Assembly (NCBI GenBank): GCA_016933045.1
Contig: JAFGBR010000019.1
Location: 1 to 64,000, forward strand
Reading direction: 5' to 3'
DNA length: 64,000 bases
From: Marinilabiliaceae bacterium
GTDB taxonomy: Bacteria; Bacteroidota; Bacteroidia; Bacteroidales; Marinilabiliaceae
The position numbers and the translations under genes were made by a program. The notes below the pieces were generated by a model. That model searched no databases. It was not told the DNA's origin and saw only the letters and a list, made by a program, of their open reading frames with translations. Below are positions 33,054 through 39,929 of this stretch, in pieces (positions within the stretch are counted from its first letter, which is position 1; each line of letters begins with the position of its first letter).

Positions 33054-34073
33054 ATGAGTGTAAAAATACTGGCAATAGAATCATCGTGTGATGATACATC
33101 GGCGGCTGTATTGAGTGACGATGTTGTGTTGTCAAATGTAATAGCTAATCAACTTGTGCATGAGGAATATGGAGGGGTTGTGCCCGAGTTGGCATCGAGG
33201 GCACATCAGCAAAATATAGTTCCAGTTGTGCAAAAGGCCTTAAATGATGCAAATGTGAATAAAAATGAAATAGATGCTGTTGCGTTTACTCGTGGGCCGG
33301 GTCTTATGGGATCGTTGTTGGTTGGAACAGCTTTTGCAAAAGGTTTTGCTTTATCGTTGGGTGTGCCTTTAATTGAAGTGAATCATTTACAAGCTCATGT
33401 GTTAGCTCATTTTATAAAAGATTCTTCTGATAGTACGAATGTTCCCGGGTTTCCTTTTTTGTGTTTATTGGTATCGGGGGGAAATAGTCAGATTATTTTG
33501 GTTAATGATTATGATAAAATGGATATTATTGGCCAAACAATTGATGATGCAGCCGGTGAAGCATTTGATAAGTGTGCTAAAGTGATGGGATTACCATATC
33601 CGGGAGGACCATTGATTGATAAATATTCGAAAATGGGTAATGATACAGCATATAGTTTTTCGAAACCTAAAGTTGCAGGTTATAATTATAGTTTTAGTGG
33701 ATTAAAGACATCATTTTTATATTTTTTACGGGACTCTTTAAAAGATAACGAAAATTTTATTGAAGAGAATAAATATGATTTGTGCGCTTCGTTACAAAAG
33801 GCTATTGTTGATATTTTGATGGATAAGTTGGAACTTGCATCAATGCAAACAGGAATTCGTACTATTGCAATTGCTGGTGGTGTGTCGGCAAATTCGGGGT
33901 TAAGAGATGCGTTGGATAAGTATTCGCATCTGAAAAAATGGAAAACGTATATTCCGAAATTTTCGTACACTACCGATAATGCTGCAATGATAGGTATTAG
34001 TGGTTATTATAAATACTTAAAAAATGACTTTTGTTCTCATGAGGTTGCTCCTTTTGCACGGTTAAATTTTTAA
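33054..34073 (+). CDS. tsaD: tRNA threonylcarbamoyladenosine synthase subunit TsaD
   Basis: A 339-residue ASKHA-fold enzyme that, with TsaB and TsaE, attaches threonylcarbamoyl to A37 of ANN-decoding tRNAs. It starts with the typical KILAIESSCDDTSAAVL and continues with VVPELASRAH. The metal-binding pair is H111 and H115 in VNHLQAHVLAH; later motifs are LLVSGGNSQI, DDAAGEAFDKCAKVMGLPYPGGP and AIAGGVSANSGLR. The length is full for the family. The stop at 34073 is followed by a palindrome at 34138-34163 before the peptide cassette. Confidence 0.96.
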   Translation: MSVKILAIESSCDDTSAAVLSDDVVLSNVIANQLVHEEYGGVVPELASRAHQQNIVPVVQKALNDANVNKNEIDAVAFTRGPGLMGSLLVGTAFAKGFALSLGVPLIEVNHLQAHVLAHFIKDSSDSTNVPGFPFLCLLVSGGNSQIILVNDYDKMDIIGQTIDDAAGEAFDKCAKVMGLPYPGGPLIDKYSKMGNDTAYSFSKPKVAGYNYSFSGLKTSFLYFLRDSLKDNENFIEENKYDLCASLQKAIVDILMDKLELASMQTGIRTIAIAGGVSANSGLRDALDKYSHLKKWKTYIPKFSYTTDNAAMIGISGYYKYLKNDFCSHEVAPFARLNF

Positions 34074-34137
34074 TTAAATAAATGCTGTTGGCATGAAATA
34101 TTATTTGTTTTATAAAATAAATGAGGTAAAATATCAG

Positions 34138-34173
34138 AAAAATGGTTGATATCAATCATTTTTCTTATTTTTG
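34138..34173 (+). promoter_or_regulatory. Palindrome and -7-like box before the RiPP-like cassette
   Basis: Positions 34138-34163 form a 26-base near-palindrome centred on TTGATATCAA with AAAAATGG / TCATTTTT arms (one G:T pair). It has no loop, so an operator is as likely as a terminator for tsaD. It is directly followed by TATTTTTG at 34166-34173, which fits the Bacteroidetes -7 consensus TAnnTTTG, 11 bases before the first gene of the cassette. Confidence 0.45.
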
Positions 34174-34184
34174 TGTCGATTGAC

Positions 34185-34484
34185 ATGTTGGATAAAATTT
34201 ACATAAAATCGGAAGATATTGTTGTTAAGCAACTTAGCGGTGAGATTGTTATAGTGCCGTTATCCAATGATATTGTAAAAATGAGTGAGATTTTTACTTT
34301 AAATGAGGTAGGTGCGTTTATTTTTACTTTGTTTGATGGAAAAAAAAATGTCAGTTCAATAATTAAAAATGTTTTGGCAGAGTTTGATGTTGATAACAAT
34401 ACTGCTCAAAATGATGTTGTTGAGTTTGTTGAATTGGCATTAAAAAAAAATATAATAAAAGAAATAGAAACTAGTACATATTAA
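34185..34484 (+). CDS. PqqD-family peptide chaperone (RiPP recognition element)
   Basis: A 99-residue PqqD-like protein. The ATG at 34185 gives the normal family length; an upstream TTG lies in the palindrome. Typical features are the early strand VVKQLSGEIVIVPL, the central FTLNEVGAFIFTLFDGKKNVSSIIKNVLAEFDVD (family pattern L-N-x-x-G--I-W--L-d-G--tv--I---l---fdv) and the C-terminal helix VVEFVELALKKNIIKEI. PqqD/RRE domains bind the leader part of ribosomally made peptides and present it to modifying enzymes. The stop codon directly abuts the start of the 64-residue peptide gene, supporting a chaperone-substrate relation. Confidence 0.82.
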   Translation: MLDKIYIKSEDIVVKQLSGEIVIVPLSNDIVKMSEIFTLNEVGAFIFTLFDGKKNVSSIIKNVLAEFDVDNNTAQNDVVEFVELALKKNIIKEIETSTY

Positions 34485-34679
34485 ATGATATATACTAATA
34501 AAAAAAGTTATTCTTCGCCCAAATTAACTTCGATAAAGGTCGATCGGGAGATTAGCTTGGTAATGGTGAGTGACCCTCCGCTCTATGAGTCTCCTTCGGT
34601 TCCAAAGGCTCCGTCGAACGGCGTATTGCCCGATAAAAATCCTTTTGGTGGAGCTTCTCCTGATTATAGTAAAATGTAA
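34485..34679 (+). CDS. Putative RiPP precursor peptide
   Basis: A 64-residue peptide starting at the base after the PqqD stop. The N-terminal part (about 9-34) is leader-like: YSSPKLTSIKVDREISLVMV. A SDPP junction follows, then a short Pro/Ser-rich segment with PSVPKAP, NGVLPDKNPFGG and the C-terminus SPDYSKM. There is no Cys, so lanthionine or sactipeptide chemistry is excluded; Ser and Tyr residues are available for phosphorylation by the kinase-like neighbour. There is no signal peptide. Its small size, position between PqqD and kinase, and composition support a precursor role; the final product is unknown. Confidence 0.65.
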   Translation: MIYTNKKSYSSPKLTSIKVDREISLVMVSDPPLYESPSVPKAPSNGVLPDKNPFGGASPDYSKM

Positions 34680-34687
34680 ATTTTAAT

Positions 34688-35587
34688 ATGGGATGTCAAA
34701 AAAAAAATGACATTTCGTTATGTGTCGCCGGTATTCAAATCGATTTTAACTGTTTGGATGCTTCTGTTTTTATTGATCACTTTGCCACCTCAAATAAGTT
34801 TATCTTACTAAATTCTTTTTCTTTTAATAGTTATAAAGCAAATATTGAGCGATGCTCAAAAAATGAATACCCAAAAATGCAACCTGTCTTTCATGGTAAT
34901 CCATGGGGTAATATTTTAATTGATTATAATTGGACAATTTTCAGTTCAGAAGGAAAGACAGGTATTCAAATAGATTTTAAAGAGATAGGTAGCATCTCAT
35001 CTGTTTTTATTGTTATTGATAAGGTTCGAAAAAATATTCTTATTTGTATTGACAGTAATGAGATTAATGTTAAGTTTGACCCATTTATGTACCCTTTTGG
35101 GGTTTTGTTGTATGTATATCTTGTTAATTATCAGAATGGGTTAATGATACATGCATCGGGAGTTGATGATGGAGGTAATGGTTTTTTGTTCACAGGTTTG
35201 TCTGGTATAGGTAAATCAACAATGGCTGGTATTTGGGCGCAAAAAGGGGCTAACGTTATTAACGATGACCGGTTGATTATAAGTCCGTTAAATGGTAAAT
35301 ATTTTATTTACAATACTCCAATGCCTTTTTATACCGATGTGCCAAAGATGGTAGAGTTGTCGAAAATTTTTATTCTAAAGCAATCAAAAGAAAATTATAT
35401 TAATAAGCTATCGGGGGTTTTGGCATATGCAAATGTAATGTCTAATTGTATCCAACATTTGTTTGCAAAAGATATGGTTCAATTACATGCCGATATTATT
35501 GGTAAAATAATATCAACGATTCCTGTATATGAGCTGGGTTTTAAACCCGATACTGAAATTGTAGATTTAATTAGGCAATTGAGGTAA
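34688..35587 (+). CDS. HPr-kinase-like protein of the peptide cassette
   Basis: A 299-residue protein. The N-terminal 130 residues are unassigned. The C-terminal half is an HprK-type kinase fold: MIHASGVDDGGNGFLFTG leads to the P-loop GLSGIGKST (about 170-178), then GANVINDDRLII (about 188-198), which matches the acidic motif of HPr kinase. HprK-like proteins in some lasso-peptide clusters (paeninodin type) phosphorylate a Ser of the precursor, so the 64-residue peptide is the likely substrate. The gene starts 8 bases after the peptide gene. No PTS HPr gene is nearby, arguing against a catabolite-control role. Confidence 0.78.
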   Translation: MGCQKKNDISLCVAGIQIDFNCLDASVFIDHFATSNKFILLNSFSFNSYKANIERCSKNEYPKMQPVFHGNPWGNILIDYNWTIFSSEGKTGIQIDFKEIGSISSVFIVIDKVRKNILICIDSNEINVKFDPFMYPFGVLLYVYLVNYQNGLMIHASGVDDGGNGFLFTGLSGIGKSTMAGIWAQKGANVINDDRLIISPLNGKYFIYNTPMPFYTDVPKMVELSKIFILKQSKENYINKLSGVLAYANVMSNCIQHLFAKDMVQLHADIIGKIISTIPVYELGFKPDTEIVDLIRQLR

Positions 35588-35588
35588 G

Positions 35589-36047
35589 ATGGATAACAAA
35601 CAAAAGATTCAACAGCTAATAAAGAATTTCATTGACGATGGAAAGATAATAGATATACCTGTTTTTGGATTAAGTATGTTTCCTTTTTTTTTACCCGGAA
35701 CAATAGTAAGGATAGGTGCAACTCCTTTTGATCAATTAAAAATGGGTGATGTAGTGCTTTTTAAAAGTGATAGTAAATACGTGATGCATCGACTGGTAAA
35801 GTGTAATGATAACGGTTTACTTACTAAAGGTGATAGTCTTCCTTATTACGATAGTAATATTACACGCGATAGATATATTGGAAAAGTTATTGCCTATTAC
35901 TCAGGTAATAAACTTAAAGAAACAACTTCAGTAATATTTCGCATTTGGGCTTTATTAATGATTGGTGGACAACGTTATTTAGGATCAATATTACACTTTT
36001 TTTCGTTTATTTGGTATAAATATGTTGGCAGTAAAAAGGTTATGTAA
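35589..36047 (+). CDS. S24/S26 peptidase, SipW-like, of the peptide cassette
   Basis: A 152-residue signal-peptidase-like protein starting one base after the kinase stop. The catalytic Ser is in PVFGLSMFPFFLPGT (S29). The second motif MHRLVK (H67) with TKGDSLPYYD (79-88) follows the archaeal/SipW Ser-His-Asp pattern, in place of the Ser-Lys dyad of bacterial LepB. A C-terminal hydrophobic stretch (about 116-146) probably anchors it in the membrane. Its place between kinase and exporter suggests it removes the leader from the exported peptide; the exporter has no C39 peptidase domain of its own. Confidence 0.75.
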   Translation: MDNKQKIQQLIKNFIDDGKIIDIPVFGLSMFPFFLPGTIVRIGATPFDQLKMGDVVLFKSDSKYVMHRLVKCNDNGLLTKGDSLPYYDSNITRDRYIGKVIAYYSGNKLKETTSVIFRIWALLMIGGQRYLGSILHFFSFIWYKYVGSKKVM

Positions 36048-36096
36048 TAATCTTGTGTAATTTTAGTGCGATAAACTATTTTAAGTTATTTATCTG

Positions 36097-37899
36097 GTGA
36101 ATTTACTATCAAAAGAAGGAACTAAACTTGTTTTTAAATCTGCCCAAATTGTTTGGAGTAGTTCGCTACATTGGAGTGTTGTAAATATATTGCTTGTTTT
36201 TTTTAGAGGTTTTATCCCGTTGGTGTTATTGTTTGTTATCAAACTTTTAATTGATGAGGTTACACAGGCTCTGGAGGTACCGTTGGAAGACAGATCATAT
36301 CGAGGCGCTTTGATTGTGGTGGGTTATGCCGGTATTTTATTTTTAGTTAACAGTGTTTCGGCCAGTATTAGTGTTTTTGCTCGCGAAAAGCAGGCGCATA
36401 AAGTTAATGATTACGTTCAGGCATTGATTCATAATAAAACTACAAAAATTCACTATTCATTTTTTGAAAACCCTGATTATCAGGATGTTTATCATCGGGC
36501 TATTAATGATGCTAATTATCGACCAACAAAAATATTTTACGGATTGGTAGGGGTATTTCAAAACCTTATTACTTTATTGTTTTTAGGAATTATGTTATTG
36601 TCATTAAACTGGCTTATGTCGGTTGTTTTGCTTACTGCTATAATTCCTACTACTATTTATAGAATATTTAGTGCAAAAAAAATGTTTTTGCTTCGACGAT
36701 CGCAAACCGAAGATGAAAGAAAACTGGCTTATTATAACAGGTTGTTAACTTTACGCGATTATGCTAAAGAACTAAGGGTATTTAATTTGGGTAATTTGTT
36801 CGAGAATCGTTTCGATTTTTACCGTAATATTATTCGAAATGCACAGCTGAAACTTTTGGTTCGAAAAACAATTGGGGAACTTATTTCACTTGTATTTACA
36901 GTAGGTGTTATTGTTGCGTTTTATGCATATATTGTAATATATACGTTGCAGGGCGAAATTAGTGGAGGAGAAATGGTAATGTATTTTTTGGCTTTACAGC
37001 GGGGATATGGGTATTTTCAGGATTTGATGTCGAAACTGTCATCATTGTATGAAGATAGTTTGTTTGTTCGTAATTTTATAGATTTTTTAAATATTAAGAT
37101 ATCATTGAATAATGGTATCCAGGTTAATACTTTTCCCGACAGGATAACATCGGGTGTTACTTTTAACAATGTTCATTTTAGGTATGACGATAGTAAGAAA
37201 TGGGTACTTAAGGATGTTAATTTGCATATAAATCCGGGCGAAACTATTGCACTGGTTGGAAATAACGGCGCAGGAAAATCAACTTTTATTAAGTTGTTGT
37301 CGGGGTTGTACGATGTTAATAGTGGAGGTATTTTTATTGATGGTATCGATATCAAAACTATTTCGAGAGATTCAATTTCTGATAATATCTCGGTTATTTT
37401 TCAGGATTTTATGCTTTATAATGTGTCGGCTAGAGAAAATATATGGTTTGGAAATGTAAGAGAATCGATTAGTAAGGATAAAATTTACCATTCGGCAAAT
37501 GATGCAGGGGTTCACGATTTGATTTCTAATTTGCCTAACGGTTATGATACAATATTGGGTAATTTGTTTAAAGATAGTGAACAGTTGAGCCAGGGTGAAT
37601 GGCAGCGTATTGCATTAGCACGATCGTTTTACAATAATGCGCAATTAATTATACTTGATGAACCTACCAGTAGTTTGGATGCTTTTAAAGAAGCAGAGTT
37701 GATTCATCATTTTAAGGAGATTACAAAAGGGAAAACTTCAATAATTATTAGTCACAGGCTTAGTACTATTTTATTGGCCGATCGTATTGCAGTACTTAAC
37801 GATTCTTGTATTACTGAAATGGGTACTTACAACGAATTAATGGAGAATAGAGGTGTTTTTTATAATATGGCACAGGCTTTTAAGTGCTCATATCAATAA
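36097..37899 (+). CDS. ABC exporter of the peptide cassette
   Basis: A 600-residue half transporter fused to its ATPase. Six membrane helices lie in residues about 25-310. The ATPase domain (about 345-595) has Walker A GNNGAGKST near 388, Q loop VIFQDFM, signature LSQGEWQRIALARSF near 496, Walker B LIILDEPTSSLD near 517 and H loop SHRLS. There is no N-terminal C39 peptidase, as in lasso-peptide exporters of the McjD type. The start is a GTG at 36097; no ATG upstream is in frame and the first internal ATG would remove membrane helices. It ends in a 7-base overlap with the convergent gene. Confidence 0.85.
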   Translation: MNLLSKEGTKLVFKSAQIVWSSSLHWSVVNILLVFFRGFIPLVLLFVIKLLIDEVTQALEVPLEDRSYRGALIVVGYAGILFLVNSVSASISVFAREKQAHKVNDYVQALIHNKTTKIHYSFFENPDYQDVYHRAINDANYRPTKIFYGLVGVFQNLITLLFLGIMLLSLNWLMSVVLLTAIIPTTIYRIFSAKKMFLLRRSQTEDERKLAYYNRLLTLRDYAKELRVFNLGNLFENRFDFYRNIIRNAQLKLLVRKTIGELISLVFTVGVIVAFYAYIVIYTLQGEISGGEMVMYFLALQRGYGYFQDLMSKLSSLYEDSLFVRNFIDFLNIKISLNNGIQVNTFPDRITSGVTFNNVHFRYDDSKKWVLKDVNLHINPGETIALVGNNGAGKSTFIKLLSGLYDVNSGGIFIDGIDIKTISRDSISDNISVIFQDFMLYNVSARENIWFGNVRESISKDKIYHSANDAGVHDLISNLPNGYDTILGNLFKDSEQLSQGEWQRIALARSFYNNAQLIILDEPTSSLDAFKEAELIHHFKEITKGKTSIIISHRLSTILLADRIAVLNDSCITEMGTYNELMENRGVFYNMAQAFKCSYQ

Positions 37900-39215
37900 A
37901 AATGATAGGTTAATCCTGCGTTAAAAGAATAACTGTATGGTTGAAAATTTTGATTTGAGGATTCGTTAATTGATGACATAAAATACCGGAAAACGGGTTC
38001 AACGTTAATCGAAATATTTTTTAAAACAGGGTATTCAATGCCAATTGAAAATTTTGAACTGTAGTTGAAATCTTTAATATCTTTTGTGGTACTTTCTGCT
38101 ACATTAACCCCATCTTGTAATAGTGTTGCTTTGTTATTAATTAAAAAGTTAGAGCATAATCCTGCTGAAACAGAAAGAATTGTCTTCTTTTCAATTATGT
38201 TAAACCGGGCAGCTAATGGAATTTCGATATATTGTAGTTGCTGTTTTATATCAATATTGGAAGAATATAAATAAACATTGTTTCCATCTTCATTAATTGT
38301 TGGCGACCTGTGTAATAAGTAGTCCATATTAATTTCGGGTAATGGAGTGTTGTTAAATGAAATACTGCCTAATGAGTTGTTAGGTATATTAACAGTGTTA
38401 GATTCTTCAAAAGGAATAACCTTATCCATTGCTATTTGATAAGGTATAGTTGTATTTGTCTGTCCTGAAATGTTTTGGCCGGTATTGGTTACAAATAAAC
38501 CGGATTCAAAACTCCAGCGTTTTTTTGTTTTTACTCTAAAGTTTAAACCTCCTGATATGGCATTTATGCCCGATTCTGTTAATTGTTGTGTGTTGGAAGT
38601 GTTTGAAACAGAATTATTTGAGAATTCGGGGGAAAATAATGCAGTTATACTCCAGTTTAAATCTCTTTTTATATTTTTTTTATATGACTCATTAGTAGAT
38701 ATATAATTGGCAGATATATAAATGTCTTTAGTTGAATTTGTATGTTGATATATTTTTTTTGGAGTGTTAACCCAATGGGTATTTATTAAGTGATATAATG
38801 GCTTTATATAAGTTAGGTTATTTTTGTGTATGTTGTTGTTTTTATTTGTAATACGTATGTGTGGTTTGGATTGTGTAATTCTTGTTTCATTTTTCGAAAC
38901 ATTTTTTGAAGTGTTTATATGAGTATTTGAGTTAGTATTATTGTATATGTTAGTGTTTGAATGAGTGGTTTGAACCTGTGTGTGTTGTTTTTTATTTGTG
39001 TTTGTATTGGTTGTCGAATTAATAAGCCATGAAAGTAATCCGATTGTTAATGAAAGCATTGCAGCAACAGATGTAACCCATATTGGTATTATTTTCTTTT
39101 TCTTTTGTTTATCAAGATTCAACTCTATGTTGTCCCATATATTTAAGGGTGGGGCAATTTCATGCTCACCTAAATGGGTTTTAAATAAATAATCTGTATC
39201 ACGATGCTGAGACAT
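37893..39215 (-). CDS. Anti-sigma-like / beta-barrel fusion protein
   Basis: A 440-residue protein with an unusual layout. Residues 1-40 (EIAPPLNIWDNIELNLDKQKKKK) look like the cytoplasmic start of Bacteroidetes anti-sigma proteins. One membrane helix follows (about 43-65, IIPIWVTSVAAMLSLTIGLLSWLI), then about 120 residues extremely rich in Asn and Thr (repeated NTN, HTN, NTS), and a C-terminal half with the strand pattern of a porT-like outer-membrane barrel (LNFRVKTKKRWSFESGLFVT ... YSYSFNAGLTYHFY). It overlaps the upstream ECF sigma gene by 17 bases. It probably holds the sigma factor at the inner membrane while its end reaches the outer membrane; signal unknown. Confidence 0.7.
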   Translation of the reverse strand: MSQHRDTDYLFKTHLGEHEIAPPLNIWDNIELNLDKQKKKKIIPIWVTSVAAMLSLTIGLLSWLINSTTNTNTNKKQHTQVQTTHSNTNIYNNTNSNTHINTSKNVSKNETRITQSKPHIRITNKNNNIHKNNLTYIKPLYHLINTHWVNTPKKIYQHTNSTKDIYISANYISTNESYKKNIKRDLNWSITALFSPEFSNNSVSNTSNTQQLTESGINAISGGLNFRVKTKKRWSFESGLFVTNTGQNISGQTNTTIPYQIAMDKVIPFEESNTVNIPNNSLGSISFNNTPLPEINMDYLLHRSPTINEDGNNVYLYSSNIDIKQQLQYIEIPLAARFNIIEKKTILSVSAGLCSNFLINNKATLLQDGVNVAESTTKDIKDFNYSSKFSIGIEYPVLKNISINVEPVFRYFMSSINESSNQNFQPYSYSFNAGLTYHFY

Positions 39216-39768
39216 AATGTTTTAGTTCGTTTGTGTTTAGTTTATTTATTCTGTTTTGAAGCCATTTTCTTGCTCTCGATAAATTTGATTTTGATGTTCC
39301 TATTGAAATGTTTAATCGTTTTGATATTTCTTCGTGTGAATAGTCATCTATAACAAATAACGAAAATACCATCCTATATTGATGAGGAAGTTCCATGATT
39401 AACTGGTGTAATAATTCTCCATTTATTTCCGTTTGTTCATCTTCGTATTGCAAAATATCACTATTTACTATTTCGTCAATGTTGTAATAATTTTTGTTTA
39501 TATCTTTTTTTCTATATTCTTCTATTATTGTGTTAATAATAATTCGCCGTACCCACCCTTCAAATGAACCTTTAAATGAAAAAGTGTCAATTTTTGTAAA
39601 TACTTTTATAAAACCTTCTTGTAAAAAATCTTCAGCTTCCATTTTGTTTCGGGTGTACCGTAAACAAATTGAATACATTTTGGGCGAAAACAGTTCATAA
39701 ATTTTTTTTTGAGCCGCTCGGTCACCTTTTTTGCAGTTAATTATTATATTTTTTATATCAGTAATCAC
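39199..39768 (-). CDS. ECF RNA polymerase sigma factor
   Basis: A sigma-70 family factor of about 190 residues. Region 2 spans about 15-80 (KKIYELFSPKMYSICLRYTRNKMEAEDFLQEGFIKVF, GSFEGWVRRIIINTIIEEYRKK). Region 4 covers about 125-175 (LPHQYRMVFSLFVIDDYSHEEISKRLNISIGTSKSNLSRARKWLQ). No in-frame ATG exists at the N-terminus; I chose the GTG at 39768, and a TTG at 39792 is the alternative. The stop overlaps the start of the fusion protein downstream, which is its likely anti-sigma partner. The -7/-35-like motif shared by the FecI operon is not seen upstream, so this is a separate regulon. Confidence 0.88.
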   Translation of the reverse strand: MITDIKNIIINCKKGDRAAQKKIYELFSPKMYSICLRYTRNKMEAEDFLQEGFIKVFTKIDTFSFKGSFEGWVRRIIINTIIEEYRKKDINKNYYNIDEIVNSDILQYEDEQTEINGELLHQLIMELPHQYRMVFSLFVIDDYSHEEISKRLNISIGTSKSNLSRARKWLQNRINKLNTNELKHYVSAS

Positions 39769-39929
39769 AATACAACAAGGAATTAATAACAACTGTGTTG
39801 TTGAAGTTTGAAGTGTTAAATTAATTCCTTTTTGATTTATTTACAATAAACTGATCATATAAAATAAATAATAATCAACTTTTATAAAATGATGGATTGC
39901 TAAGTTAAAAGGTTGCGTGAATAATTGAA

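Follow-up and report, generated by a model that had tools for sequence, protein, structure and literature searches.

Introduction

Among described systems, the closest to the locus studied here are the pathways of the linear polyphosphorylated peptides (LPP), known from the lpp genes of Paenibacillus alginolyticus, in which a precursor with a YxxP leader is accompanied by a discrete RRE (the recognition element of ribosomally synthesized and post-translationally modified peptides, RiPPs), an HprK-like kinase, an SpI-like peptidase, an MsbA-like exporter and a nucleoside triphosphate (NTP) transferase, the genes frequently lying close to capsule loci (Popov et al. 2026, PMC13381572). Experiments have shown that the kinase places several phosphates on core Ser3 and that the SpI-like peptidase needs the RRE; the kinase LppK rejected Thr at this position (S3T), the residues of the peptidase LppS are S29, H68 and D93, and the leader consensus is YxxPxVLxHQxIxFETxxS (PMC13381572). 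The role of YxxP-type motifs is known from both lasso and LPP leaders, and LPP were stated to be restricted to Bacillota, with a patchy distribution (PMC13381572). Here we describe a cassette of five genes in a 64,000-nucleotide stretch (the window) of a genome of the family Marinilabiliaceae (G000), which by its sequence would work like an LPP pathway with a different leader motif and modification site, and thus appears to be a Bacteroidota counterpart of LPP-type pathways. Our literature search, with subscription journals and preprints outside its reach, found no report of such a cassette in Bacteroidota.

Gene content and conservation of the cassette

The five open reading frames follow tsaD on the + strand as a compact series, separated by 0, 8, 1 and 49 nucleotides, and encode in order a PqqD-type discrete RRE (34185..34484; PF05402, 60.7 bits), a 64-residue precursor peptide that we call type 1 (34485..34679), an HprK/PEPCK-fold kinase (34688..35587), an S26 protein of the archaeal/SipW signal-peptidase type that is the putative leader peptidase (35589..36047) and an MsbA-like ATP-binding cassette (ABC) exporter without a peptidase domain, which has a GTG start (36097..37899). 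A first-pass annotation of the window had proposed these five packed genes, and we confirmed their coordinates and families. It had also stated that the locus has no gene for a lasso-type cyclase, B2 transglutaminase, radical SAM, YcaO or LanM protein, a kinase being the only visible modifying activity, and indeed no asparagine synthetase, lasso B2 peptidase, radical SAM, YcaO or LanM domain was found by Pfam in the eight proteins encoded from tsaD to the extracytoplasmic function (ECF) sigma factor gene (33054-39792). The grouping is more than a chance arrangement, because the identical gene order recurs across the family.

A homologue of the kinase is present in 35 of the 37 Marinilabiliaceae genomes and the precursor peptide, the frame of which is conserved in the family, in 34 of them. 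Neighbourhood comparison shows the five genes to be conserved together, the order tsaD-pqqD-peptide-kinase-S26-ABC, followed by genes for an opposed outer-membrane protein, the ECF sigma factor and smpB, being the same in many genera. Named genera in the family are Breznakibacter, Saccharicrinis, Labilibacter, Marinilabilia, Alkaliflexus, Carboxylicivirga, Anaerophaga, Thermophagus, Natronoflexus and Geofilum. The S26 and ABC genes are seemingly missing at the cassette in Marinilabilia, Anaerophaga, Thermophagus, Alkaliflexus and Geofilum, with an S26 homologue elsewhere in the genome; in several such genomes S26 still stands beside the ABC, outer-membrane protein, sigma factor and smpB genes, and giant genes for cargo of the type IX secretion system (T9SS) are inserted between S26 and the kinase. 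Simple loss of S26 in the Marinilabilia-type genomes was ruled out, as the gene is kept elsewhere in every case, and each of the 41 cassette genomes that were checked has an S26 homologue, even those in which the gene no longer adjoins the cassette. The cassette is a vertically inherited system and not a mobile cluster.

Outside the family, the peptide was found in 23 of 291 sampled Bacteroidales genomes, 19 of which have a strong kinase match (Fisher p = 2e-16 for co-occurrence, a value that ignores kinship), and beyond this order it is nearly absent across 395 genomes of the phylum. Three rumen Bacteroidales (G005, G023 and G033; loci L065-L067) have adjacent PqqD, kinase and S26 genes, with no peptide that we could recognise between the first two; their precursor must be divergent or encoded elsewhere. 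More distant PqqD-NTP_transf_5-ABC-kinase clusters, nearer to the Bacillota LPP gene set, occur in G055 and G242 (L068 and L222), and at L068 a short YxxP-like peptide lies ahead of the kinase.

The precursor peptide and its predicted phosphorylation site

The 62 aligned peptides of the family share K-x-Y-x-x-P-x-[L/I], an Asp at Tyr+11 and I-x-L. In the window the leader motif is Y9-S-S-P12-K-L14 (34509..34526, + strand), where Y and P are invariant in the alignment, and this YxxPx[L/I] element is the predicted RRE-binding site. When the Tyr is taken as position 1, the alignment block is ungapped through position 21, which is Ser or Thr in 61 of 61 family peptides by pattern and in one more by eye; with ten peptides from other families added this holds for 72 of 72 (46 Ser and 26 Thr), always exactly 20 residues past the Tyr, and positions 20 and 22 vary freely beside it. 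At least eight switches between Ser and Thr at position 21 are needed on the kinase tree, so that what is kept is the hydroxyl and not the identity of the residue. Because some relatives have only about a dozen residues past this position, the hydroxyl lies at the start of the core. On grounds of invariance, position 21, which is Ser29 in the window (34569..34571, + strand), is predicted to be the best candidate phosphosite.

Other hydroxyl residues were considered and rejected. The type-1 peptides end in PFGGxxPDYS or similar, and in the window this conserved C-terminal motif is NPFGGASPDYSKM (34638..34676, + strand); PDYS was ruled out as the main phosphosite, as it can be PDF, PAW or PDYG, or be absent, as in second peptides. 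The Ser of I-S-L (column 16) was ruled out likewise, being Ser or Thr in 62% only. Of the Ser, Thr and Tyr targets suggested at first pass, the conserved Ser/Thr at position 21 agrees with the suggestion, whereas Tyr is unlikely, the C-terminal Tyr being replaceable by Phe or Trp.

RRE, kinase, peptidase and exporter

Profile matches of the RRE in the PDB give 41.9 bits for the lasso protein TbiB1, 40.1 for 9x90 and 33.6 for 9x8z; from their entry names and dates we take 9x8z to be the LPP RRE and 9x90 a paeninodin-type RRE. The kinase resembles HPr kinase families weakly in sequence, reaching 23.5 bits against Hpr_kinase_C (PF07475; cut-off 33.3) and 24 of the 240 bits required by the full-length model TIGR00679. 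Nevertheless, the AlphaFold2 model built from 34 homologues (mean predicted local distance difference test score 92.6) matches HprK/P and PEPCK structures with a Foldseek probability of 1.00, and an HprK/PEPCK fold is thus predicted for this protein. Three elements that are invariant in the kinase alignment align with HprK (1jb1/2qmh), all on the + strand: His155 with the His of the active-site region (35150..35152), the P-loop GLSGIGKST at residues 170-178 (35195..35221), and Asp193-Asp194 in an NDDR motif like the ADDR of HprK (35264..35269).

The S26 protein passes the cut-off of the signal peptidase model TIGR02228 (53.2 bits against 51.85) and also matches SEC11; its Ser29, His67 and Asp82/Asp88, the predicted Ser-His-Asp catalytic residues, are conserved in the alignment. 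The exporter is recognised by ABC_tran (115.6 bits) and ABC_membrane (37 bits), has no peptidase domain of its own and is kept behind S26. In three genomes one open frame encodes both, with the S26 domain attached at the N-terminal end of the ABC protein and its Ser, His and GD motifs preserved (G048, L061:1716-3956; G253, L240:4095-6377; G073, L220:1176-3593). The fusions link leader removal and export directly, and by sequence the fused protein is an exporter that carries its own peptidase, a serine enzyme in place of C39. In this it resembles the peptidase-containing ATP-binding cassette transporters and ABC-transporter maturation and secretion proteins (PCAT/AMS exporters, C39 peptidase-ABC), where a leader peptidase is likewise fused to the ABC N-terminus; however, the peptidase here is S26 (Ser-His-Asp) and not C39, the genes are separate in the window, and the ABC protein carries no C39 domain.

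The proposed pathway and its relation to known systems

We propose that the PqqD-type RRE binds the precursor through its YxxPx[L/I] leader, as the motif and the protein family suggest, and presents it to the kinase, which would phosphorylate Ser29 once or several times. The S26 peptidase would then cut the leader off close before Ser29, and the product, a linear phosphopeptide rich in Pro and Gly, would leave for the periplasm through the ABC protein, a step to which the fusions lend support. The second precursor described below is probably handled by this RRE, kinase and peptidase as well. We estimate the probability of this phosphopeptide pathway as a whole at about 0.7; sequence comparison establishes which genes are present, their conservation and synteny, the invariant residues, the fusions and the absence of B2, and from these we infer each catalytic step, the cleavage site, the part played by NTP_transf_5 and the final function.

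The first-pass annotation had suggested a phosphopeptide RiPP of a new class. The biosynthetic logic is backed by the comparison, given the RRE and leader motif, the intact HprK active site, the invariant hydroxyl, the S26 triad, the fusions and the lack of a cyclase, while the claim of a new class falls, LPP already having this logic. Indeed, the cassette unites the same five core functions in one cluster (a precursor with a YxxP leader, an RRE, an HprK-like kinase, a SpI peptidase of the SipW/archaeal type and an MsbA-like exporter) and shares with LPP the lack of cyclase and B2 in the cluster, an NTP transferase in the genome, a tie to polysaccharide loci and the Ser-His-Asp peptidase residues, here S29, H67 and D82/D88.

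The NTP transferase deserves separate mention, since the kinase had been taken as the only modifying activity. NTP_transf_5 (PF14907), a core LPP gene family, is present in 37 of the 41 cassette genomes, as a single copy in most. It neighbours the cassette, directly or at a short distance, in G048, G062, G120, G226 and G327, and over the whole order it is commoner in genomes with the peptide than in those lacking it (19/23 vs 70/268, p = 1e-7). The only copy in the window genome is unlinked (G000:C20:26423-27577) and belongs to an exopolysaccharide locus (L246:3988-16690) with neighbours resembling Wzc, Wza and glycosyltransferases, as named by eye from sequence. It is therefore another candidate modifier, and may further modify the phosphate.

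Differences from LPP are also evident. The cassette is inherited almost universally in a family of Bacteroidota, whereas LPP are patchy in Bacillota; its site is Ser or Thr, with Thr in about one in three; the NTP transferase is outside the cluster in the window genome, although adjacent in several other Bacteroidales families; two precursor genes, a T9SS partner and, in relatives, S26-ABC fusions are present; and the RRE scores closer to the lasso RREs (TbiB1) than to 9x8z. Owing to the differences in leader consensus, two-residue spacing, Thr use, NTP transferase linkage and RRE scores, we have not filed the cassette as LPP.

Several observations weigh against the proposed pathway. Only YxxPx[L/I] and the later I-x-L match the LPP leader consensus, with neither HQ nor FET, and the hydroxyl stands at Tyr+20 instead of Tyr+18. 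LppK refuses Thr, which is common here, and the present kinase would therefore have to be of another kind than LppK, unless the position is something other than a phosphosite. The presumed -1 residue, Met in the window, is atypical for a signal-peptidase site, and the invariance of Ser/Thr carries some ascertainment bias, as the profiles used to find the peptides were built from sequences bearing Ser or Thr. ABC or S26 has disappeared from the cassette in some lineages, and genomes such as G008/G036 show no ABC gene close beside S26; none was seen there in the Alkaliflexus/Geofilum group either, where ABC may have been lost or replaced.

With the phosphorylated lasso peptides (paeninodin, pseudomycoidin) the cassette shares a YxxP/WxxP leader, a discrete RRE, an HprK-like kinase and an ABC exporter; unlike them it lacks macrolactam cyclase and B2, has an S26 peptidase instead, and bears its hydroxyl at the core start and not at a C-terminal Ser. 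The B2 peptidase (PF13471) is absent from 37 of the 41 cassette genomes searched, G000 included, and in the other four it lies on other contigs, in what appear to be genuine lasso clusters, each equipped with an RRE, a precursor and a cyclase-like gene of its own. The HprK-like kinase, present in three of these four separate clusters, belongs to a separate clade from the cassette kinases on the kinase tree. These probable Bacteroidales lasso clusters (L242, L244, L245 and L243, in G191, G204, G296 and G082) also carry an extra sulfotransferase-looking gene, separate from the cassette. No cyclase kept by relatives and lost in the window came to light: Asn_synthase (PF00733) has many matches in 27 genomes, as expected from asnB and sugar loci, and none is on the cassette in annotated loci; a possible cyclase beside the peptide at L173 was rejected as purF-like (126.9 bits vs 20.2 for asn_synth).

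Second precursor, T9SS proteins and alternative explanations

In most genomes of the family a second peptide is encoded, unlinked to the cassette; it shares the leader and hydroxyl of the first and has a different tail (FxENPFxx). In the window genome it is encoded on contig C67 (L071:9883-10095), 12 nucleotides behind the gene for a 1266-residue Big_5/T9SS surface protein, a pair (G000:C67, L071:6070-10095) conserved across the family: in 30 of 34 such loci the peptide gene lies directly behind a homologue of this one Big_5-domain protein with a T9SS type-A tail, usually at 9-49 nucleotides. Outside the family, the complete cassette lies immediately behind a T9SS type-A gene in 7 of 8 informative loci, at 2-77 nucleotides in L204-L207, L209 and L210 and at 433 in L212, the tails of these upstream proteins all scoring above the curated cut-off. 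T9SS cargo makes up 3 to 10% of genes (about 104 in the window genome and at least about 150 in others), and against this background 7 of 8 would arise by chance with p below 1e-6. In Marinilabilia-type genomes, arrays of T9SS-tailed proteins of 2,000-3,600 residues are inserted in the cassette locus (L228, L229, L232, L233, L165 and L168).

These neighbours bring forward the strongest alternative, namely that the cassette is an accessory system of T9SS, with no diffusible product, in which T9SS surface proteins would use the phosphopeptide as a partner, a linker or the donor of a modification, and the exopolysaccharide-linked NTP_transf_5 would act on it. The recurrent upstream genes, the giant genes inserted in the cassette and the location of NTP_transf_5 speak for such a role, but adjacency is no proof of function, the first peptide in the window has no adjoining T9SS gene, and the 30 second-peptide loci are largely one vertically inherited locus; we regard it as a tentative explanation, with odds of well under one half. 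That the product acts at the envelope or surface with T9SS-exported proteins or polysaccharide is a speculation of similar standing, to which the same neighbours lend support. More doubtful still is the broadest version, a Bacteroidales-wide phosphopeptide system serving both T9SS and surface polysaccharide, where the phosphopeptide would be a partner or covalent part of T9SS proteins, NTP_transf_5 would link it to polysaccharide, and a RiPP pathway would act as envelope machinery and not for a secreted natural product.

The vertical, near-universal inheritance next to tsaD, and the genomes in which only pqqD, peptide and kinase are kept together, would also suit a regulatory or housekeeping phosphoprotein, with the peptide as an intracellular, HPr-like phospho-acceptor and S26 and ABC incidental. 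This is improbable in view of the retention of S26 in every one of the 41 cassette genomes, the S26-ABC fusions, the two or more divergent peptides per genome and the peptide genes directly behind those of secreted T9SS proteins. We hold it equally improbable that the HprK-like protein attaches or transfers a group other than phosphate, or has a substrate other than the peptide: its weak similarity to HPr kinase families and the use of PEPCK-like folds in other phosphotransfers would allow it, but the adjacent peptide has an invariant hydroxyl, and the characterised LPP and paeninodin-type kinases phosphorylate Ser (PMC13381572). Least likely is a degenerate or disguised lasso pathway, in which an Asn-synthetase-like cyclase encoded elsewhere would thread or cyclise the peptide. 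Although the leader and RRE are lasso-like, the RRE profile scores TbiB1 slightly above 9x8z and the genomes have several Asn_synthase proteins, B2 is missing from 37 of the 41 cassette genomes, actual lasso clusters lie on other contigs with their own genes and kinase clade, and the peptide alignments contain no conserved Asp/Glu 7-9 residues past a small core residue 1.

Surroundings of the cassette in the window

The upstream gene tsaD (33054..34073, + strand; PF00814, 308 bits) is a conserved housekeeping neighbour that adjoins the cassette in most relatives and lies outside the system. The two are separated by an intrinsic-terminator-like hairpin (34136..34165, + strand) with a 13-pair stem and a T tail (RNA fold z = -5.1). 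It is followed by TATTTTTG (34166..34173, + strand), a tentative candidate for a Bacteroidota -7 promoter box. Directly after the cassette (37893-39792) come the genes of the opposed outer-membrane beta-barrel protein and the ECF sigma factor, which, together with smpB, are conserved in the family.

Implications

A gene arrangement that in 2026 had been described from Bacillota alone is thus found in another phylum, where it is fixed and vertically inherited in one family and spread through Bacteroidales. The invariant Ser/Thr offers a single-residue handle on the mechanism, chemistry is made easier by the very short cores that some relatives have (EPPTSDPPF after T, for instance), and the S26-ABC fusions would represent a second kind of peptidase-containing exporter. 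The role of LPP was unknown as described in 2026 (PMC13381572); in Marinilabiliaceae the recurrent neighbours, T9SS surface proteins and exopolysaccharide genes, make the role of the cassette testable, and its fixation in the family argues for a basic cellular role over warfare.

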